This document shows positions 1,134 to 35,424 of a stretch of DNA of 37,630 nt, in pieces; position 1 is the stretch's first letter, and each line of letters starts with the position of its first letter. The position numbers and the translations under genes are program-made. The stretch is from a virus. The stretch covers positions 1 to 37,630 of IMG/VR virus record IMGVR_UViG_3300027797_001432; one strand, given 5' to 3'. The notes under the pieces are model-generated. The model saw only the letters and a program-made list of their open reading frames with translations, made no database searches and had not been told where the DNA came from.

Positions 1134-3014
1134 ATGGGAGCATTATTAGAATCAGGTCTTGTTGGTAATATTGGGTTAAAACACCTTAAAGTTATCAAAG
1201 AAGACACAATTAACAAATGGGATAGATTAGGATTCCTTGAAGGCCTTAAAGGTCACCTAAAAGAAAACGTAGCACAGTTATATGAAAACCAAGCTTCTTT
1301 CTTGATTAACGAATCAACTTCTGAAACTTCTAACGGAGCGTTCGAAACTGTTGTTTTCCCTATCGTAAGAAGAGTTTTCTCTAAATTGTTAGCGAATGAT
1401 ATCGTATCAGTACAAGCAATGAACTTACCAATCGGTAAATTGTTCTTCTTTGTACCTCGTATCCAAGGATATAACCCAAATGCGGCTAACCCTGATGGAA
1501 CTCACTATTCACCAATAGGATCACCTCAAGCAATTGCTGACACACAAAATGATCCAAATCAAGGTTATCCTGGATATACTGCACAACCAAACGCACCATA
1601 CACTAAAAATCTTTATGATTTATTTTATGAAGGTAATGAGGCAGGATTAGATCCTCCAGGATTGTTTGATTACTCAAAAGGTCAATGGACTGCGGTAACT
1701 CAACCGGCTATTGCACAAGTATGGTCAGGTTCAAACTTAGTTGCAGCGACTGACCAATTTGATGGTATAAATACAAGAAAAATGATTGTTAAACTTTGTG
1801 GATTTAATAACGCAGGTGTTGGTAAATTAATCGGACCTGATGGTAACGAAATCGATACTGAAACTTTCCTTTCAGATCTTAAAATAACTGCCGATTTAAG
1901 TGTATTAACAGGATCTACAGGTTGTCCTAATTTAGATGAAATTGGGTCTACAAATTTATCCGCACCATTATTATTTAGAGTTGTTACTCAAATTTATGGT
2001 AAAGGTATTGTACAACCAACATCAACTAACGCACCTACAACATTCCCAGGAACTGGTAATGGTGGAAATTATAATGACATATGTTCACAAGAGGGTTGTA
2101 TCTATTTAGAAGTTGACCTTTCTTGTCCAGCATGTGTTGATTGTTCAGAGACTACATTAGATGGTTACACAGGAACTACAATTGGAGGATTTTCGGCTAA
2201 TACTGCGGTTTTAGGATCATCTCCATTCATAGCGGTTTATAGAAGATATAAAAGTTTAGAATTTGAAGATCAAATTGGTGAAGTTTCTTTTGACCTTGAG
2301 TCAGTTACAGTATCTGTTACAGAAAGAAAACTAAGAGCACAATGGTCTCCTGAATTAGCACAAGACGTTGCTGCATTCCATAACATCGACGCTGAGGCTG
2401 AATTGACGGCATTGTTGTCAGAACAAGTTGCGGCTGAGATCGACCGTGAAATTTTACGTGACTTACGTAAAGGAGCGGCTTGGAACCTACGTTGGGATTA
2501 CAACGGATGGAGAAGATTGAGTTTAACAACTTCTTATACTCAAAAAGATTGGAACCAAACTTTGATCACTGCGATCAATCAGTTGTCGGCACAAATCCAC
2601 AAATCTACTTTAAGAGGTGGAGCTAACTGGATCGTTGTTTCTTCTGAGGTTTCTGCAATCTTTGATGACTTAGAATACTTCCACGTATCTAACGCATCTC
2701 CTGAGCAAGATCAGTATAACATGGGTATTGAGAGAGTTGGTACTTTGTCAGGACGTTACCAAGTTTACCGTGATCCTTACTTCCCACCAAACACAATTTT
2801 GATCGGACACAAAGGAACATCATTGTTAGACACAGGTTACATCTACGCACCGTACGTACCTCTACAATTAACACCTACAATGTACAACCCATTCAACTTT
2901 ACACCTATAAAAGGTATTATGACAAGATACGCTAAGAAAATGGTTAACAACCGTTTCTACGCAAGAGTCACAGTTGATGGAGTTAGAACATTTGACTTAA
3001 GAGAATTGAGATAA
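1134..3014 (+). CDS. Major capsid protein, T4 gp23-like
   Basis: Forms the hexamers of the phage head (HK97 fold in the gp23 family). The N-terminus (GLKHLKVIKED... then NQASFLINESTSE) followed by a segment around residues 70-110 with VVFPIVRRVFSKLLANDIVSVQAMNLP arranged as in gp23, and the C-terminal NRFYARVTVDGV, are family hallmarks. I58-N59-E60 followed by S61 matches the (I/L)-x-E prohead-protease consensus and lies close to the T4 cleavage position (E65), so about 60 residues are probably removed on maturation. At 626 aa it is about 100 longer than T4 gp23 (521 aa); the extra length seems to lie in residues 125-370 and includes a cysteine cluster at about 317-336. A strong terminator follows. 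Codon choice looks better optimised (more GC-ending codons) than in its neighbours, as expected for the most abundant protein. Confidence 0.96.
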   Translation: MGALLESGLVGNIGLKHLKVIKEDTINKWDRLGFLEGLKGHLKENVAQLYENQASFLINESTSETSNGAFETVVFPIVRRVFSKLLANDIVSVQAMNLPIGKLFFFVPRIQGYNPNAANPDGTHYSPIGSPQAIADTQNDPNQGYPGYTAQPNAPYTKNLYDLFYEGNEAGLDPPGLFDYSKGQWTAVTQPAIAQVWSGSNLVAATDQFDGINTRKMIVKLCGFNNAGVGKLIGPDGNEIDTETFLSDLKITADLSVLTGSTGCPNLDEIGSTNLSAPLLFRVVTQIYGKGIVQPTSTNAPTTFPGTGNGGNYNDICSQEGCIYLEVDLSCPACVDCSETTLDGYTGTTIGGFSANTAVLGSSPFIAVYRRYKSLEFEDQIGEVSFDLESVTVSVTERKLRAQWSPELAQDVAAFHNIDAEAELTALLSEQVAAEIDREILRDLRKGAAWNLRWDYNGWRRLSLTTSYTQKDWNQTLITAINQLSAQIHKSTLRGGANWIVVSSEVSAIFDDLEYFHVSNASPEQDQYNMGIERVGTLSGRYQVYRDPYFPPNTILIGHKGTSLLDTGYIYAPYVPLQLTPTMYNPFNFTPIKGIMTRYAKKMVNNRFYARVTVDGVRTFDLRELR

Positions 3015-3034
3015 TCAATTAAACTGAATAAGAG

Positions 3035-3064
3035 AAAAGGAGATAAGAAATTATCTCCTTTTTT
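3035..3064 (+). terminator. Rho-independent terminator after the capsid gene
   Basis: A perfect 12-bp stem (AAAAGGAGATAA at 3035-3046 with its complement at 3051-3062) encloses a GAAA tetraloop and ends in a T tract (3059-3064). It starts 21 bases after the capsid stop codon and separates the capsid transcript from the next gene. Confidence 0.92.
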
Positions 3065-3136: not shown

Positions 3137-3146
3137 GTATTTATTA
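3137..3146 (+). promoter_or_regulatory. Candidate promoter motif before the T9SS-type gene
   Basis: GTATTTATTA lies 14 bases before the ATG at 3161, after the capsid terminator. The identical 10-mer lies before the gene at 30295. This suggests independent transcription of the downstream gene. The role is inferred. Confidence 0.35.
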
Positions 3147-3160
3147 GTAAATGATATCTT

Positions 3161-5266
3161 ATGAAAAATTCTCTACTTATTTTTTTTGTTATACTAACAA
3201 GTTTTTTTGTTAGATCACAAGTAAGTTCTTACACATTTGGAACATCGACTGGAACATACACACCAATAGTTGGTGGTAGTAATTACGATAACTTTACAAG
3301 TTGGTCAAATACAAACTTTTTAGACGATAATAATTCAACCGCATTAGAATCTATAGGATTTAACTTTGTTTATAATGGAACAACCTATACACAATTTGCA
3401 GTTAATACTAATGGATTTATAACATTAGGTGCGTTACCAACTAATAGTTATTGTCCATTGGGTTCTGGTACGGTTGGTGGTTTCTCATATACCGCAGGGG
3501 CATCAAATAATGTCATATCAGCAATGGGTACTGACTTAATAGGTCGTGGGTCGTTATTGGCGAATAGAACTTTAGGTAGTGCGGTTATTACAATAACTGG
3601 TGGTGATATAAGTCAAATATTGGTTGGGGATAAAGTTAGTGGTGGTGGTGCTGGTATTCCTGCAGGTGCTACGGTACTATCTAAAACCGCAACTACTGTG
3701 ACAATTTCTGCAAATGCAACAAGTAATGGTACCGGATTTCATTTTAGATTTAGTAGGGCAACATTCGGTATCAGATTTCAAACAATAGGAACATCCCCTA
3801 ATAGGACGTTAGTTGTACAATGGACAGGTTGGCAAAGATATACAACATCGGGAGGTTTTGGAGAGTTATATAACTTTCAGATAAGATTAAATGAAACAAC
3901 CAACACAATTAATGTTGTTTATAACATACAAGGACCAACAAGTACTACCCCAACAACATTTCAGGTAGGTTTAAGAGGATCGGCAAACACTGATTTTAAT
4001 AACAGAACAACCACAACAAATTGGTCGTCAACCACTGCAGGGACATTAAACAGTTCAACAGTTACACTATCAAATACAGTTAAACCAACTTCAGGATTAA
4101 TATATACGTGGACACCACCCGTTATTCCCGTTTGTTCAGGAACACCAAACCCAGGAAACACACTTTCTTCTTCATTAACAACGTCACCAAACGGAACCGT
4201 AAATCTCTCACTACAAAACACTACAACAGGTACGGGAGTAACTTATCAGTGGCAGAGTAGTCCAGATAATTCAACATGGACAAACTTTGGAACGTCATCC
4301 TCTACCCAAACATCACCACCAATCACTTCACCTACTTGGTTTAGATCTACCGTCACTTGTTCAGGAAATAGTGGAATATCAACACCTATTCAAATAACAT
4401 TATCATATTGTACATATAACATAACTAATAATGACCCTACAGGTATTACTTCTGTAACGTTTGGTACAATATCAAATACAAGTATTGGTGGTCCGGCCTA
4501 CAGTGATTTTACCTCACAATCAACTACCGTAGAACAGGGTGGTATTTATCAATTAAATGTTAATGTAAACACAGATGGTAATTGGACAGTAAATACAAAG
4601 GTTTGGATAGATTGGAACCAAAATTACATATTTGAAGTAGGAGAAGAGTATTCTTTGGGTAGTGCAATAAACACCGCTAATGGAATTACATCATTATCCC
4701 CTTTAAATATAACAGTACCAAGCGGAGCAACTTTAGGAGAAACTAGAATGAGAATAGTATCAGTTGAAGCAAGTAATCCTGCACCATTATCGTGCGGTAC
4801 ACAACTTTATGGTGAGGCTGAGGATTATAAACTATTAATAACACCACCAACAAGTCTTCCTGTGGAGTTAATATATTTTGAAGGTTTTGGTTATCAATAT
4901 TATAACACTTTAAAGTGGTCAACTGCGTCGGAATATAACTCAGATTACTTTTCACTTGAAAGAAGTGTGAATGGTGAACAATGGGATTATGTTGGAACCA
5001 CAAAAGCAACGGGAAATAGTACACAAGTGGTTAATTACCTATATGTGGATAATTTTAGATTTAATGGGTTTATTTATTACAAATTAAATCAGTTTGATTT
5101 TGATGGTAATTTTAAAGTGTACGGTCCAATATCAATTAATAATACACACACAAATAAAAAGGTAGTTAAGTATATTAATATATTGGGTCAAGAAGTAAGT
5201 TCAGAAACAAACGGGTTTATTTTTGAGGTCTATGAAGACGGTACAACTAAAAGAATAATTAGATAA
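3161..5266 (+). CDS. Secreted multidomain surface protein with type IX secretion sorting domain
   Basis: 701 aa. Residues 1-19 form a signal peptide (MKNSLLIFFVILTSFFVRS, probable cleavage before Gln20), implying Sec export to the periplasm. Residues 20-320 are a Gly/Ser/Thr/Asn-rich beta domain of the type common in flavobacterial surface proteins, with an IPAGATV element near 168. Residues 325-420 resemble an Ig/PKD-like domain (GVTYQWQSS). Residues 425-560 match a GEVED domain (ending GEAEDYKLLI). From about 566, SLPVELIYFEGF and then LKWSTASEYNSDYFSLERS precede a C-terminal segment (668-701: YINILGQEVSSETNG, then EVYEDGTTKRIIR) typical of flavobacterial type-A T9SS sorting domains. The protein should therefore cross the outer membrane by the host T9SS. 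It has its own leader and sits between a terminator and a convergent gene, like a host-derived moron. Its role is unknown: surface decoration, receptor masking or a virion part are all possible. Confidence 0.82.
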   Translation: MKNSLLIFFVILTSFFVRSQVSSYTFGTSTGTYTPIVGGSNYDNFTSWSNTNFLDDNNSTALESIGFNFVYNGTTYTQFAVNTNGFITLGALPTNSYCPLGSGTVGGFSYTAGASNNVISAMGTDLIGRGSLLANRTLGSAVITITGGDISQILVGDKVSGGGAGIPAGATVLSKTATTVTISANATSNGTGFHFRFSRATFGIRFQTIGTSPNRTLVVQWTGWQRYTTSGGFGELYNFQIRLNETTNTINVVYNIQGPTSTTPTTFQVGLRGSANTDFNNRTTTTNWSSTTAGTLNSSTVTLSNTVKPTSGLIYTWTPPVIPVCSGTPNPGNTLSSSLTTSPNGTVNLSLQNTTTGTGVTYQWQSSPDNSTWTNFGTSSSTQTSPPITSPTWFRSTVTCSGNSGISTPIQITLSYCTYNITNNDPTGITSVTFGTISNTSIGGPAYSDFTSQSTTVEQGGIYQLNVNVNTDGNWTVNTKVWIDWNQNYIFEVGEEYSLGSAINTANGITSLSPLNITVPSGATLGETRMRIVSVEASNPAPLSCGTQLYGEAEDYKLLITPPTSLPVELIYFEGFGYQYYNTLKWSTASEYNSDYFSLERSVNGEQWDYVGTTKATGNSTQVVNYLYVDNFRFNGFIYYKLNQFDFDGNFKVYGPISINNTHTNKKVVKYINILGQEVSSETNGFIFEVYEDGTTKRIIR

Positions 5267-5277
5267 AAATTATTCTT
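5251..5277. terminator. Inverted repeat between convergent stop codons
   Basis: AAGAATAATT (5251-5260) and AATTATTCTT (5268-5277) form a perfect 10-bp stem with a 7-base loop spanning the stop codons of two convergent genes. It may act as a bidirectional terminator, but the stem is AT-rich and lacks a long T tract. Confidence 0.4.
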
Positions 5278-5497
5278 CGGGGGAATTGTTTTTAGATAGT
5301 ATTCTGATAGCTTTAGATAATACTTCTGTTTCTCCAATAGAGAAAGATCCTCTATTATATGATGATTTTACTGACTCAATTAAGTAGTATAATGCATATT
5401 CTTTATCCATTGTAGATAACATTACTTCTAAATGTTCTTCAGACAAAAGAGTTATATTATCAAAGAGGACCCCAAAGTTTTTATTTTCTTGTTCCAT
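5270..5497 (-). CDS. Small protein of unknown function (75 aa)
   Basis: Not recognised. A 75-aa acidic protein, mostly helical by composition, without cysteines, a signal peptide or a membrane segment. It converges with the T9SS-type gene (3 bases between stops) and diverges from the gene at 5526, with a 28-base gap containing TATAAATA on this strand at 5513-5520. That is the classic T4 late-promoter sequence, 15 bases before this ATG, so late expression is plausible. Confidence 0.6.
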   Translation of the reverse strand: MEQENKNFGVLFDNITLLSEEHLEVMLSTMDKEYALYYLIESVKSSYNRGSFSIGETEVLSKAIRILSKNNSPEE

Positions 5498-13496: not shown

Positions 13497-13516
13497 ATCA
13501 ATAAATATTTTTGTTT

Positions 13517-30294: not shown

Positions 30295-33150
30295 ATGGCG
30301 GGACAAAATATTAATCAATATGTGTTTCAAAAATATAAAATAAACACCGTTAATGAGTCAATGGATATGTCATTGTCGTCAGATGAAAGAGATTATAACG
30401 AGGAAGTTATTTTTTCCCCATACCTTATTGCGGAAACCTACGGTAATAAATTACCAATTAATATTGATATTAATAATCCATTAACATCTCAAGGATTAAT
30501 ATTAAATTATAAAAATTTTAATTCTAATAATGTTTTTGTTTCTCAAAATTACTATAACCCAAACAATGAAGATCTAACTTGTTTTTCATCATCAACATTA
30601 TGTGATGTAGGTTTAACAGGCATAGATAATGGTTTGGTTGATAAAATGACAGGGGAGACCTTAAATTATACAAAAGGATTATATAATGATTTTTTAAAAT
30701 TTGACAGATTACATTTTGATAGAAGAATTAAATTATTCCAAGTAACGGGATACACCCAAAGTAATAATAAATTTTCAGGAATTACAAAAGACACTCTTTA
30801 TGAGGTTGTAAGTAAAAACGATCCTCAGTTTGGTAAGTACCATGAATTGTACGGTGGTTTCTACCAAGGATTTTATAAACTATTTGGGTTTGATTATGAA
30901 GTTTTACCTGAAAGATCTTCTAAAGGTTGGTCGGTAGAAATGTTATTAAGACCTAGATTTGTTAATGAATACAATCCATTACCTACTGAAACAACTCTTA
31001 ATGAGATGTACCCAAAAAATAAAAATACGTTTTTTTATTTTGGTACAAGAGCCGAAAATAAATTTTACCATCATGCCGATGGACACCCAAATTGTTTAAC
31101 TGGTTATACAAGAGTTACTAATTCATTAAGTGGTTGTCCGTCAACATGTGCTTGTTGTGATAGAACAGTTACGGATAGTAGATGTGTTTATGTTTACCCA
31201 CCAAGATCTTATAATAACCAACATGATCCACATTTAAATTATGGATGTCCACTTTGTGGTGGGGACAAAAAAATCTCACTAACATGTGGTTGTGGTTGTA
31301 ATGAAAGTTCATGTGAAACTTGTGGGTGGGAATGTCAAATACATAATTGTGAAACAGTAATTTTACCAACACCTACCCCGTCACCAACACCAACACCTAC
31401 CCCGTCATGTGAAACACAAACACCGGTATGTACACCAACCTGTACTAAATGTGAAACGTGCGATGAGTGTACAACTTGTGGACCAACGGGTTTTACTTCT
31501 ATTGAGTACACATGTGAGACTGATCCATTGTTTGATGTTATGTCAAATAATATATCGTTTAAACTTTGTGGTGATGTGAAAAACCCACAGATTGGTGTAA
31601 AGGTATTAAGGTTTACTGGTGGTTGTGAAACAACGGGAACTTGCGTAACGGGTAAAACATATGTTACAGGATATACTATTGATGAATATTGTTCACCACC
31701 AATTTATCCTTATTGTGAAATTGTTAACCCTGATTTCTTAAATGAAGAGCATTGGTTTTTAGTTAACGTAACTTGGGAAAGATATTCATGGTTTGATTTC
31801 TGTGATTTAAAATTTTATGGAGGTTTGTTTGACATTACTAAATTTGAATACTTGGAATCTTTGGCAAACAACAGTGTTGAATTAATAAGGCCTCCTTTAA
31901 CCCATAACAATAAAAGTGGGGAATTAATAGAATTAGTTAACTTAAATGAAACTTGGTTAGATGAAAAAAAATATAGATTAGGAAGATTAAAGATTTATGT
32001 TAACGGTAAAAAAATATATACAATAGAGGACTTTGAAGAAGTAATACCAAGAGGTTTGTTTACCGACAAAGAAAAACAAATAGGAGTTCCTTTTAATATC
32101 TCTTGGGGTGGTGGAACACAAGGATTACATGAAAATTTAACTTTTTCATCTTGTTCTGCGTTAACGTCAAATTACATACAAGATCCTGAATGTTTACCTA
32201 ATAATATATTAAGTGGGACTACTTTATCGGGGTTAAGTACTAACATACTACTTGAACAAAATTTCGGAGGAACCTTTGATGGGGGGATATCTCAGTTCAG
32301 ATTTTATATTGAACCTTTAGAATCCGACGAGATCAAACATAATTTTAAATTGTTGAAAGATAAATTTATTTTATTTGATCCTGATTGTCCTGATTGTGAT
32401 ACTAAATTTTGTAAGACAAATGATTTAACATATCAGATAAATGATGTTGTTACAAGTACAACAACAATAAATTCTTTACCACATAGTTTAGGTAGGGTTT
32501 ATATTGAGGACAAAAGAGATTTAAATTATCTTATAAAAAACAACCAACGAACACTCCAACAAATATCAACACCACCAAAAGTTTTAACTCAAAGGTATTG
32601 GGACGACAATGGATGGTGGGGAGATCAAGGAAACACACCTCAATGTGTTGGGTATTCGTGGTCACATTGGTTAGAAGATGGTCCTGTACAACAATCAGGA
32701 ATTCCACCGATAATAAAACCTTTTGATATATATAAAAACGCACAAAAATTAGATGAGTGGTATGGTGAAAACTATGACGGAACATCGGTTAGAGGGGCGG
32801 TAAAATATCTTAAAAATATTGGTAAAGTAAAATCATACTATTGGGCTTTTGATGTACAAACATTGTCTGAAACAATTTTAAAATTAGGTCCTGTGGTTGT
32901 TGGGACTAATTGGTATAATGGAATGTTTTATCCTAATAAAACTGGGTTAATTAAAATTAGTGGACAGATGGTTGGTGGTCATGCCTACTTAATAAATGGT
33001 GTTGACACAAAAACAAAACAATTTAGAATAAAGAACAGTTGGGGTAAATCTTGGGGTAATGGTGGACATGCGTTTATTTCGTTTAATGATATGTCAAGGT
33101 TAATAAAAGAAAATGGAGAAATCTGTTTGGCAATTGAATTAGGAAGTTAA
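30295..33150 (+). CDS. Giant virion-type protein: lectin-like fold, Cys-rich insertion and C-terminal papain-like peptidase
   Basis: 951 aa. Residues 1-200 are beta-rich without a known motif. From about 211 (GWSVEMLLRPRF) to about 685, strands resemble a concanavalin A/LamG-like lectin fold, including GRLKIYVNGKKIYT at about 563 and GGISQFRFYIEPLESDEIKH at about 663. An insertion of roughly 255-410 is packed with cysteine pairs (CACC, CPLCGG, CGCGC, CETCGWEC, CETCDECTTC) and a PTPTPSPTPTPTPS linker (about 357-372). Residues 765-951 match papain-family (C1) peptidases: Gln778 and Cys784 with the same spacing as papain Q19-C25, GGHAYLINGVD with His896, and KNSWGKSWGNGGHAF with Asn914. No signal peptide, so it probably acts as part of the particle. 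It may cleave host surface protein or process itself or other fibre proteins. It shares TAATG with the next gene. Confidence 0.8.
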   Translation: MAGQNINQYVFQKYKINTVNESMDMSLSSDERDYNEEVIFSPYLIAETYGNKLPINIDINNPLTSQGLILNYKNFNSNNVFVSQNYYNPNNEDLTCFSSSTLCDVGLTGIDNGLVDKMTGETLNYTKGLYNDFLKFDRLHFDRRIKLFQVTGYTQSNNKFSGITKDTLYEVVSKNDPQFGKYHELYGGFYQGFYKLFGFDYEVLPERSSKGWSVEMLLRPRFVNEYNPLPTETTLNEMYPKNKNTFFYFGTRAENKFYHHADGHPNCLTGYTRVTNSLSGCPSTCACCDRTVTDSRCVYVYPPRSYNNQHDPHLNYGCPLCGGDKKISLTCGCGCNESSCETCGWECQIHNCETVILPTPTPSPTPTPTPSCETQTPVCTPTCTKCETCDECTTCGPTGFTSIEYTCETDPLFDVMSNNISFKLCGDVKNPQIGVKVLRFTGGCETTGTCVTGKTYVTGYTIDEYCSPPIYPYCEIVNPDFLNEEHWFLVNVTWERYSWFDFCDLKFYGGLFDITKFEYLESLANNSVELIRPPLTHNNKSGELIELVNLNETWLDEKKYRLGRLKIYVNGKKIYTIEDFEEVIPRGLFTDKEKQIGVPFNISWGGGTQGLHENLTFSSCSALTSNYIQDPECLPNNILSGTTLSGLSTNILLEQNFGGTFDGGISQFRFYIEPLESDEIKHNFKLLKDKFILFDPDCPDCDTKFCKTNDLTYQINDVVTSTTTINSLPHSLGRVYIEDKRDLNYLIKNNQRTLQQISTPPKVLTQRYWDDNGWWGDQGNTPQCVGYSWSHWLEDGPVQQSGIPPIIKPFDIYKNAQKLDEWYGENYDGTSVRGAVKYLKNIGKVKSYYWAFDVQTLSETILKLGPVVVGTNWYNGMFYPNKTGLIKISGQMVGGHAYLINGVDTKTKQFRIKNSWGKSWGNGGHAFISFNDMSRLIKENGEICLAIELGS
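31365..31406 (+). repeat. 18-bp direct repeat coding Pro-Thr linker
   Basis: ACCAACACCTACCCCGTC occurs at 31365-31382 and again at 31389-31406. It codes a PTPTPS linker similar in DNA to those in the two following genes. Confidence 0.85.
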
Positions 33151-34176: not shown

Positions 34177-35424
34177 ATGAAAATTTTTATACAAATTGCG
34201 TCTTATAGGGACCCACAATTAATACCAACAATCAAAAATTGTGTAGACAACTCAAAAAATCCACAGAATTTAGTTTTTTCAATTGCAAGACAATTTAATC
34301 CTGAAGATAAGTTTGATGATCTCTCAGAATTTGAGTCCGATAAAAGATTTAAAATTTTAAACATTCCTTATCAAGAATCAAAAGGAGTTTGTTGGGCAAG
34401 AAATTTAACTCAACAACAATATGATGGTGAAGAATATACTTTACAGATAGATTCCCATATGCGTTTTGAAAAAGATTGGGACCAAACTTTAATTGACATG
34501 ATTAAAGATTTACAAACCAAAGGTTATAAAAAACCATTATTAACTGGATATGTATCGTCCTTCGATCCTGACAATGACCCTCAAGGTAGAGTTTTAGATC
34601 CGTGGAGAATGACGTTTGACAGATTTACACCTGAAGGTTGTGTTTTCTTTTTACCCGAAGTGATCCCTAATTGGAAAGACCTAACGGAACCAATACCATC
34701 AAGATTTTACTCGGCTCACTTTTGTTTCACATTAGGAGAATTTTCAAAAGAAGTTCAACACGATCCCGAATATTATTTTCACGGAGAAGAAATCTCAATT
34801 GCCGTAAGGGCCTATACTCATGGATATGATTTATTTCATCCACATAAAATTGTTATTTGGCATGAGTACACAAGAAAAGGTAGAACAAAACAATGGGACG
34901 ACGATAAAGAATGGTATAAGAAAAATGAATCATCACATTCTAAAAATAGAAAACTTTTAGGTGTTGATGGTGAAATATTAAACGAGGAGATTGGAATCTA
35001 TGGGATGGGGACAGAACGCACCGTTACAGAGTACGAAAAATACTCAGGCATACTATTTTCAAAAAGAGCGGTACAACAATATACAATAGATAAGAAATAT
35101 CCACCAAACCCATACGATTATAAGAACGAGGAAGAATGGATTAATAGTTTCTCAATGATCTTTAAACATTGTATTGATGTTTCATTTAACGATGTTCCAG
35201 AAAATGATTATGAGTTTTGGGTTGTTGCATTTCACAACGGTAAGGACGAGACTCTTCATAGACAAGACGCGGATACAGGAGAAATTCTTAGAATGAAACA
35301 AGATCCTGACGGATATTGTAAAGTATGGAGAGAGTTTAACACAACAGAAAAACCAAAATACTGGGTTGTTTGGCCGTACTCAAAATCAAAAGGATGGTGT
35401 AACAGAATAACAGGTAATTTATAA
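34177..35424 (+). CDS. GT60-like polypeptide GlcNAc-transferase
   Basis: 415 aa. Residues 1-260 match the GlcNAc family (PF11397, CAZy GT60) of UDP-GlcNAc:polypeptide alpha-N-acetylglucosaminyltransferases, whose known members act on Skp1 hydroxyproline in Dictyostelium and on Thr-rich mucins of Trypanosoma cruzi. Key elements: FIQIASYRDPQLIPTIKNC, ESKGVCWARNLTQQQY, YTLQIDSHMRF with DSH as the metal site, and HGEEISIAVRAYTHGYDLFH, then IVIWHEYTRKGR. The C-terminal 140 residues are an extra region (YEFWVVAFHNGKDETLHRQD) I do not recognise. It lies 47 bases after the genes that encode Pro/Thr-rich proteins, suggesting that they are substrates. Bacterial members of the family are not well studied, so acceptor identity is inference. 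Confidence 0.82.
   Translation: MKIFIQIASYRDPQLIPTIKNCVDNSKNPQNLVFSIARQFNPEDKFDDLSEFESDKRFKILNIPYQESKGVCWARNLTQQQYDGEEYTLQIDSHMRFEKDWDQTLIDMIKDLQTKGYKKPLLTGYVSSFDPDNDPQGRVLDPWRMTFDRFTPEGCVFFLPEVIPNWKDLTEPIPSRFYSAHFCFTLGEFSKEVQHDPEYYFHGEEISIAVRAYTHGYDLFHPHKIVIWHEYTRKGRTKQWDDDKEWYKKNESSHSKNRKLLGVDGEILNEEIGIYGMGTERTVTEYEKYSGILFSKRAVQQYTIDKKYPPNPYDYKNEEEWINSFSMIFKHCIDVSFNDVPENDYEFWVVAFHNGKDETLHRQDADTGEILRMKQDPDGYCKVWREFNTTEKPKYWVVWPYSKSKGWCNRITGNL

Follow-up and report, generated by a model that had tools for sequence, protein, structure and literature searches.

Work on phage takeover usually concerns events within the cell. Among the closest described relatives of the system considered here is Cryophage, a Bacteroidetes phage with a 76-kb circular genome and three tagged genes (an endoglucanase, a GH39 gene and a PA14 gene) that carry type-A domains of the type IX secretion system, T9SS (Bellas et al. 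2020, PMC7468147). The hypothesis that such genes serve surface modification or superinfection exclusion has already been made for Cryophage (PMC7468147). ORFs with T9SS sorting domains are also found near the head genes of crAss-like phages, where their function was left unresolved (PMC6949934). On the bacterial side, short CTDs have been described from Prevotella intermedia: they measure 40–51 aa (about 40–55 aa in round terms), their three strands correspond to strands 3, 6 and 7 of the long CTDs, and their cleavage and glycosylation have been shown by mass spectrometry (Ye et al. 2025, PMC11969387). For one CTD of Porphyromonas gingivalis, earlier work found that the last 22 residues suffice for secretion (reviewed in PMC5445135).

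The capsid–cargo locus

The source record, analyzed as a single window of 37,630 nucleotides, is a 37.6-kb stretch of viral DNA in which an ORF of 701 aa (3161–5266, plus strand), here called the cargo gene, lies directly 3' of a gp23-type major capsid protein gene (1134–3014, plus strand). The two are separated by 146 nt. An earlier note on this DNA, made from the sequence alone, had placed the ORF beside the major capsid gene, and the matches of the upstream gene to Pfam Gp23 (E 6.4e-73) and to PHROG 138 (major head protein) bear this out. The cargo ORF itself is far above chance: it has 33 viral relatives, mostly full length, and a dN/dS of about 0.1.

Several features of the surrounding sequence are worth recording. 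The capsid protein is 626 aa long and the Gp23 match is confined to its C-terminal half; the N-terminal half contains a fast-evolving region (residues ~75–370, with 80–96% DNA identity among close strains, against 94–100% elsewhere), and this fast evolution suggests an inserted surface domain in that half of the protein. A 42-bp unit, DDEDRFGSMKGGRF, is present in three tandem copies at 1–150, in the N-terminal part of a gene that ends at 1060 and probably starts before the window. Among the late genes at 13500–37630 there is a long run of glycan-related genes encoding GtrB-like and other glycosyltransferases, an acetyl-/methyltransferase and a GlcNAc transferase (34177–35424); their products may act on glycans of the virion or of the host. 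Another late protein (30295–33150, 951 aa), which has no signal peptide, has at its C-terminus a peptidase domain of the papain family (C1), with E 3.8e-7 in Pfam and E 8e-55 to a PHROG peptidase. Rfam and tRNA searches of the window gave no match.

Between the capsid and cargo genes there is a strong terminator hairpin (3033–3064, plus strand) with an RNA fold of -20.4 kcal/mol (z -5.66), which is kept with compensating changes in many relatives. It is followed by a late-promoter-like box, GTATTTATTA (3137–3146, plus strand), some 15–24 bp 5' of the start codon. The TATTTAT within this leader (3138–3144) is kept in most of the orthologs aligned. The same heptamer is present 5' of 9 of the 16 window genes that have intergenic space, gp23 included, against an expectation of 1.3 and with 0 of 2,000 shuffles reaching this count. 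In these nine genes, which lie on both strands, the box reads TATTTAT(T/A) and is positioned 11–49 bp before the start codon. We regard it as a candidate late promoter of the T4-like gp23 phage group. A sigma-70 scan of the window gave results at chance level, and the TATTTAT box was used instead.

Downstream of the cargo gene the signal is less clear. A hairpin at 5264–5295 (plus strand) is weakly terminator-like (-8.3 kcal/mol, z -2.2) and overlaps the end of a convergent 75-aa gene (5270–5497); it is not listed by a consensus terminator scan of the plus strand. The leader and upstream terminator that the earlier note had assigned to the gene are thus as it described them, while the downstream terminator proved weak. 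Its comparison of the gene to a moron is supported: about one third of related phages have the gene, which comes with its own promoter-like box and an upstream terminator.

The cargo protein and its C-terminal tail

The cargo protein begins with a strong predicted signal peptide (3161–3217, plus strand), MKNSLLIFFVILTSFFVRS/Q, ending ...FFVRS/Q, where the slash marks predicted cleavage before Gln20. No other N-terminus in the window comes close to it in hydrophobicity, and it obeys the Q-rule of Bacteroidetes signal peptides (PMC5837995). The earlier note had recognized a signal peptide here. Signal-peptide and Q-rule calls were rule-based. A site composed of a small residue followed by Gln was found in 43 of the 45 distinct viral N-termini that have a start; the remaining two appear to be mis-called starts.

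The signal peptide is followed by a conserved N-terminal head domain (residues 21–318; 3221–4114, plus strand), which shows 67–94% identity among the 33 viral relatives. Within it the alignment defines an insert of ~70 residues (GSAVITITGGDIS...IPAGATVLSKTATTVTIS; 3539–3754, plus strand) that is missing from heads of the L212/L258 type and forms a separately confident stretch in the AlphaFold model. Next comes an exchangeable middle region (4115–4850, plus strand) containing a GEVED domain (PF20009, residues 479–558; 4595–4834, plus strand; Pfam E 8.2e-19), which had also been called correctly from the sequence. An Ig/FN3-like domain (LPVELIYFEG...YYKLNQFDFDG, residues 566–660; 4856–5140, plus strand) precedes the tail.

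An AlphaFold model of the C-terminal region, built from 48 sequences, has a mean pLDDT of 91 and predicts seven strands (the Ig-like domain) followed by three (the tail, at 107–112, 125–130 and 135–139). The model of the whole cargo protein is poor (pLDDT 48) and a PDB fold search with it was uninformative; PDB sequence searches with the whole protein and with the tail profile returned chance-level matches only, and PHROGs and PADLOC gave no match for the cargo protein. In the passenger, beta domains are stacked in an adhesin-like manner, and none can be recognized as catalytic.

The last 43 aa (5135–5263, plus strand), with three predicted strands, make up what we describe as a short C-terminal sorting module on the basis of a tail profile, bacterial matches and the AlphaFold model. 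The protein ends ...EVYEDGTTKRIIR, as the earlier note stated. The same note had read this ending as a flavobacterial type-A T9SS sorting domain, and had itself named a failure to match models of the TIGR04183/TIGR04131 type as counting against that reading; such a failure is what was found. TIGR04183 (type-A) gave no match at E<=1 in the cargo protein, none in the whole record and none at E<=10 in 12 relatives. TIGR04131 (type-B) is not among the NCBIfam matches of the cargo protein and these 12 relatives, and no Pfam or NCBIfam sorting-domain model matches the tail of any of them. The type-A label was dropped because there is no direct model match. At 43 aa the tail is a shorter variant, which the curated models, spanning some 72–80 aa, do not pick up.

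A fold search with the tail model recovered generic Ig/FN3 folds without a significant match. Aligned to canonical CTDs with hhalign, the viral tail reached a probability of 5%, which is not significant, and bacterial short tails reached 35%, values slightly above those of column shuffles but no proof of kinship. Short CTDs are marked by motifs B (an invariant Gly), D (GxY or GxN) and E (basic); the tail profile has invariant N15, G18, Q19 and G27 and a basic end, and its motif D is GxI.

Bacterial genomes were scanned with the 136-aa C-terminal region and 77 loci carrying the Ig-like domain were fetched, nearly all of them from Bacteroidota. In most, the domain continues into a canonical CTD of ~80 aa of the YPNP type; in Crocinitomix catalasitica and in a Crocinitomicaceae MAG it ends in a short module of the viral type. 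Because both follow the same Ig-like domain in bacteria, the short and the canonical tails occupy the same place. A profile of the short module matched in 62 of 100 genomes of the Crocinitomix family (up to 11 copies per genome), in 89 of 199 Flavobacteriales genomes and in none of a phylum-wide sample of 147 further genomes; since the sampling scheme behind these sets is not given, the distribution indicates a host range but does not measure it. In each of the 47 bacterial proteins extracted, the match reaches to within 5 aa of the stop codon. A recognizable signal peptide is present in 26 of them, most of the others being cut at a locus edge, and their passengers differ widely. The Crocinitomix-type genomes tested contain, in addition, 100–150 canonical TIGR04183 tails each. 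The translocon gene sprA was found in 196 of 199 sampled Flavobacteriales genomes, although it is so common that its co-occurrence with the module makes a weak test; the phage host itself is inferred and not observed.

The tail behaves as a sorting module, forming the extreme C-terminus of dozens of otherwise unrelated secreted Flavobacteriales proteins. These sequence comparisons give good support to a tail that functions in the manner of a short CTD, while membership among the short CTDs is not proven; the tail resembles this recently described class rather than a strict type-A domain. With P. intermedia as the first, Crocinitomix-type Flavobacteriales appear to be a second lineage where short tails coexist with long ones.

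A different explanation is that the protein is exported by Sec to the periplasm or outer membrane only, the tail being a structural end-cap and not a T9SS signal; from the inside, such a protein might assist lysis or block DNA entry. The silence of the curated T9SS models and the weak profile similarity to canonical CTDs count in favor of this explanation. It is nevertheless unlikely: the same ending is found on very different secreted proteins, repeatedly within single genomes that are full of T9SS cargo, and it replaces canonical CTDs after the same domain. T9SS export to the host surface, as the earlier note proposed, is the best reading of the Q-rule signal peptide, of a tag found on unrelated secreted proteins and of the near-universal presence of sprA, even though no curated T9SS model matches.

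The slot after gp23, selection and gene flow

The position of the cargo gene is conserved. In all 33 contigs that carry close viral relatives of the protein, gp23 lies 5' of the gene; the gap between the two is usually ~150 nt, and is sometimes large enough to hold another gene. Of 138 viral contigs that encode a relative, at least 80 were found, in a scan with the C-terminal alignment, to carry the tail essentially complete. Twenty contigs were searched whole, several of them 95–257 kb in length, and each contains exactly one tagged gene. A count that started from gp23 covered the 52 loci that extend 2.2 kb or more beyond it: 15 have a tagged gene in the slot (16–18 if partial ones are included), and the others mostly have genes without signal peptides.

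What occupies the slot varies. The heads of the tagged viral genes fall into at least six unrelated groups, and the passenger modules include CUB, GEVED, GBD_T9SS_assoc and Ig_7, with weaker matches to fn3 and PKD; no catalytic domain was found in the tagged viral proteins scanned. In four related loci (L261, L289, L314 and L332) the slot holds subtilases with signal peptides (Pfam S8, E 1e-16 to 1e-31), two of which end in T9SS-like tails (PGYYFLVNNGIIVRKIYKN-type) that no model catches, and in one related phage a secreted DNA/RNA endonuclease lies beside the subtilase. Overall, the slot after gp23 looks like a place for secreted cargo.

Searches of isolate phages and plasmids found no full-length relative of the cargo protein. 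Four uncultured huge phages match its C-terminal region only, and some Bacteroidota plasmid proteins, several of them annotated as T9SS type A, match it in part. In a 634-kb uncultured phage (LR745206) an ORF ends with the same Ig-like domain and a short tail (...NTLGQEVDEYQKGLIFEIYEDGSVKKKYISE), and the short tag may extend beyond the gp23 clade studied. A cultured relative, Flavobacterium phage immuto 2-6A, encodes near the same place a protein (gp064, 546 aa) with PKD-like repeats and no signal peptide.

A location directly after gp23 could also be taken to mean a virion function, with the protein a capsid decoration or head fiber and its beta domains fiber modules. The ~70-residue head insert, which we take to resemble fiber repeats, fits this idea, as does gp064 of immuto 2-6A, and for that branch the idea stays alive. 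For the cargo protein itself it is quite improbable. The signal peptide would carry the protein out of the cytoplasm, where capsids assemble, and its absence from the immuto 2-6A repeat protein sets the two apart; the conserved tail is the ending of bacterial secreted proteins, and about two thirds of the phages with this gp23 do without the gene.

The cargo gene is under strong purifying selection in its head domain, where the median dN/dS is 0.10; in the tail region it is 0.26. Relative to one locus (L016), the middle of the gene (~4100–4850) has been replaced, with 41–48% DNA identity between flanks that are mostly 92–100% identical. Relative to another (L004), identity is 86–96% over most of the cargo gene but only 53–80% over a large part of the capsid gene and of the downstream gene. 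The replaced middle in the first comparison and the contrast in identity in the second point to recombinational exchange of the cassette or of parts of it.

Exchange has also involved a bacterial chromosome. A Flavobacteriales genome (G326; L349:2243–5899) encodes beside pgk a surface protein of ~1,200 aa; over 289 residues, the head of this protein and the phage head share 82% protein identity and 81% DNA identity. The tail region was not found in this genome, although it holds the closest bacterial head domain. In a tree, the G326 head falls among viral sequences with modest support (88/87). The GC-content of the G326 head is 36% (GC3 0.19), like that of the phage gene, whereas the rest of the same gene and its neighbors are at 45–47%. 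Given this base composition and placement, sequence comparison makes transfer from phage to host at least as likely as the reverse. A phylogeny had been proposed in the earlier note as a means of finding a host donor; in the tree the closest bacterial head is nested among viral sequences, and the direction of donation may be reversed.

The similarity to G326 raises the prospect that the gene is merely a captured fragment of a host surface protein with little function for the phage. We consider this very improbable, given the low dN/dS of the head across divergent phages, the maintenance of the gene in many phages together with a promoter-like box and terminator, and the phage-like composition of the bacterial domain, by which the transfer may have run the other way.

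Proposed mechanism and comparison with known systems

The sequences themselves show the signal peptide, the tag, its constant place in the genome, a single tagged gene in each contig searched whole, purifying selection and the exchange of passengers; use of T9SS, surface location and timing late in infection are what we infer. The cargo gene would be transcribed from its own late-type promoter, and Sec would export the protein, with signal peptidase I cutting before Gln20. The host T9SS would then recognize the short C-terminal module, presumably via a PorV-type shuttle; the module would be cleaved, and the protein would stay on, or leave, the surface of the infected cell. Passengers would be exchanged by recombination, with one tagged gene per phage in those that have the slot after gp23. 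The resulting variable surface coat or adhesin would alter which phages or cells attach to the infected cell, that is, it would act in superinfection exclusion or masking.

Taken as a whole, we think it probable that the gene encodes phage cargo for the host T9SS, with a short-CTD tail and an adhesin-like passenger, expressed from a single exchangeable slot after gp23 for display at the surface late in infection, the most likely role being exclusion or masking. The role in superinfection exclusion or masking, considered on its own, is plausible but falls short of an even chance: in none of the tagged proteins scanned do the passenger domains, as judged from their sequences, point specifically to exclusion.

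Surface display could instead serve adhesion. Infected cells that stick to surfaces, particles or uninfected neighbors would increase the contact between progeny and hosts, or would alter biofilm behavior. The CUB, GEVED, galactose-binding-like, Ig and fn3 passengers are typical of Bacteroidota adhesins, the tagged proteins scanned have no catalytic domain, and a large surface protein of a bacterium also contains the head domain; sequence, however, does not separate adhesion from masking, and the secreted subtilases found in the same slot suggest that it is not only for adhesins. An adhesive role is possible but doubtful. Returning to exclusion, we offer a broader proposal, and only tentatively: that T4-like Flavobacteriales phages possess a dedicated single-slot display locus after gp23 from which the host's own T9SS and a compact tag coat the infected cell with one interchangeable passenger, giving an exclusion coat that varies "antigenically" within the population, and that heads pass between this locus and host surface proteins, in the direction from phage to host as well.

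If true, Bacteroidota phages would have, in a conserved and exchangeable locus that reshapes the exterior of infected cells via a phylum-specific secretion system, a counterpart to the O-antigen-converting or exclusion genes known from enteric phages. Because the short tag has no TIGR04183 or Pfam match, cargo of this kind escapes standard annotation.

Phage-encoded, strain-variable T9SS cargo, together with the same exclusion hypothesis, is already known from Cryophage (PMC7468147). New among the open-license literature are the post-gp23 slot in T4-like phages with its one tagged gene per contig and its model-invisible short tail, and also the Crocinitomix-type distribution of the tag and the gene flow with a host surface protein. 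The locus resembles Cryophage in that genes of a Bacteroidetes phage carry a host T9SS signal and vary between otherwise near-identical phages (PMC7468147); it differs in belonging to T4-like gp23 phages, in having one tagged gene per contig after gp23, in its adhesin-like passengers and in a short tail that type-A models miss. With crAss-like phages it shares a predicted Bacteroidetes host and a tagged ORF near the head-gene block, but those are another phage group and their passenger has BACON repeats (PMC6949934). The tail is like the T9SS type-A domain (TIGR04183) in position, in type of passenger and in co-occurrence within the same bacterial genomes, but is unmatched by that model and has no YPNP-type first half. 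With the short CTDs of P. intermedia it has in common a length within about 40–55 aa, three predicted strands, a conserved Gly motif, a terminal basic motif, a place at the extreme C-terminus and an accompanying signal peptide; it departs from them in that GQEV and YxDGT are present, and the GxY motif absent, in the tails of the viruses and of Flavobacteriales.
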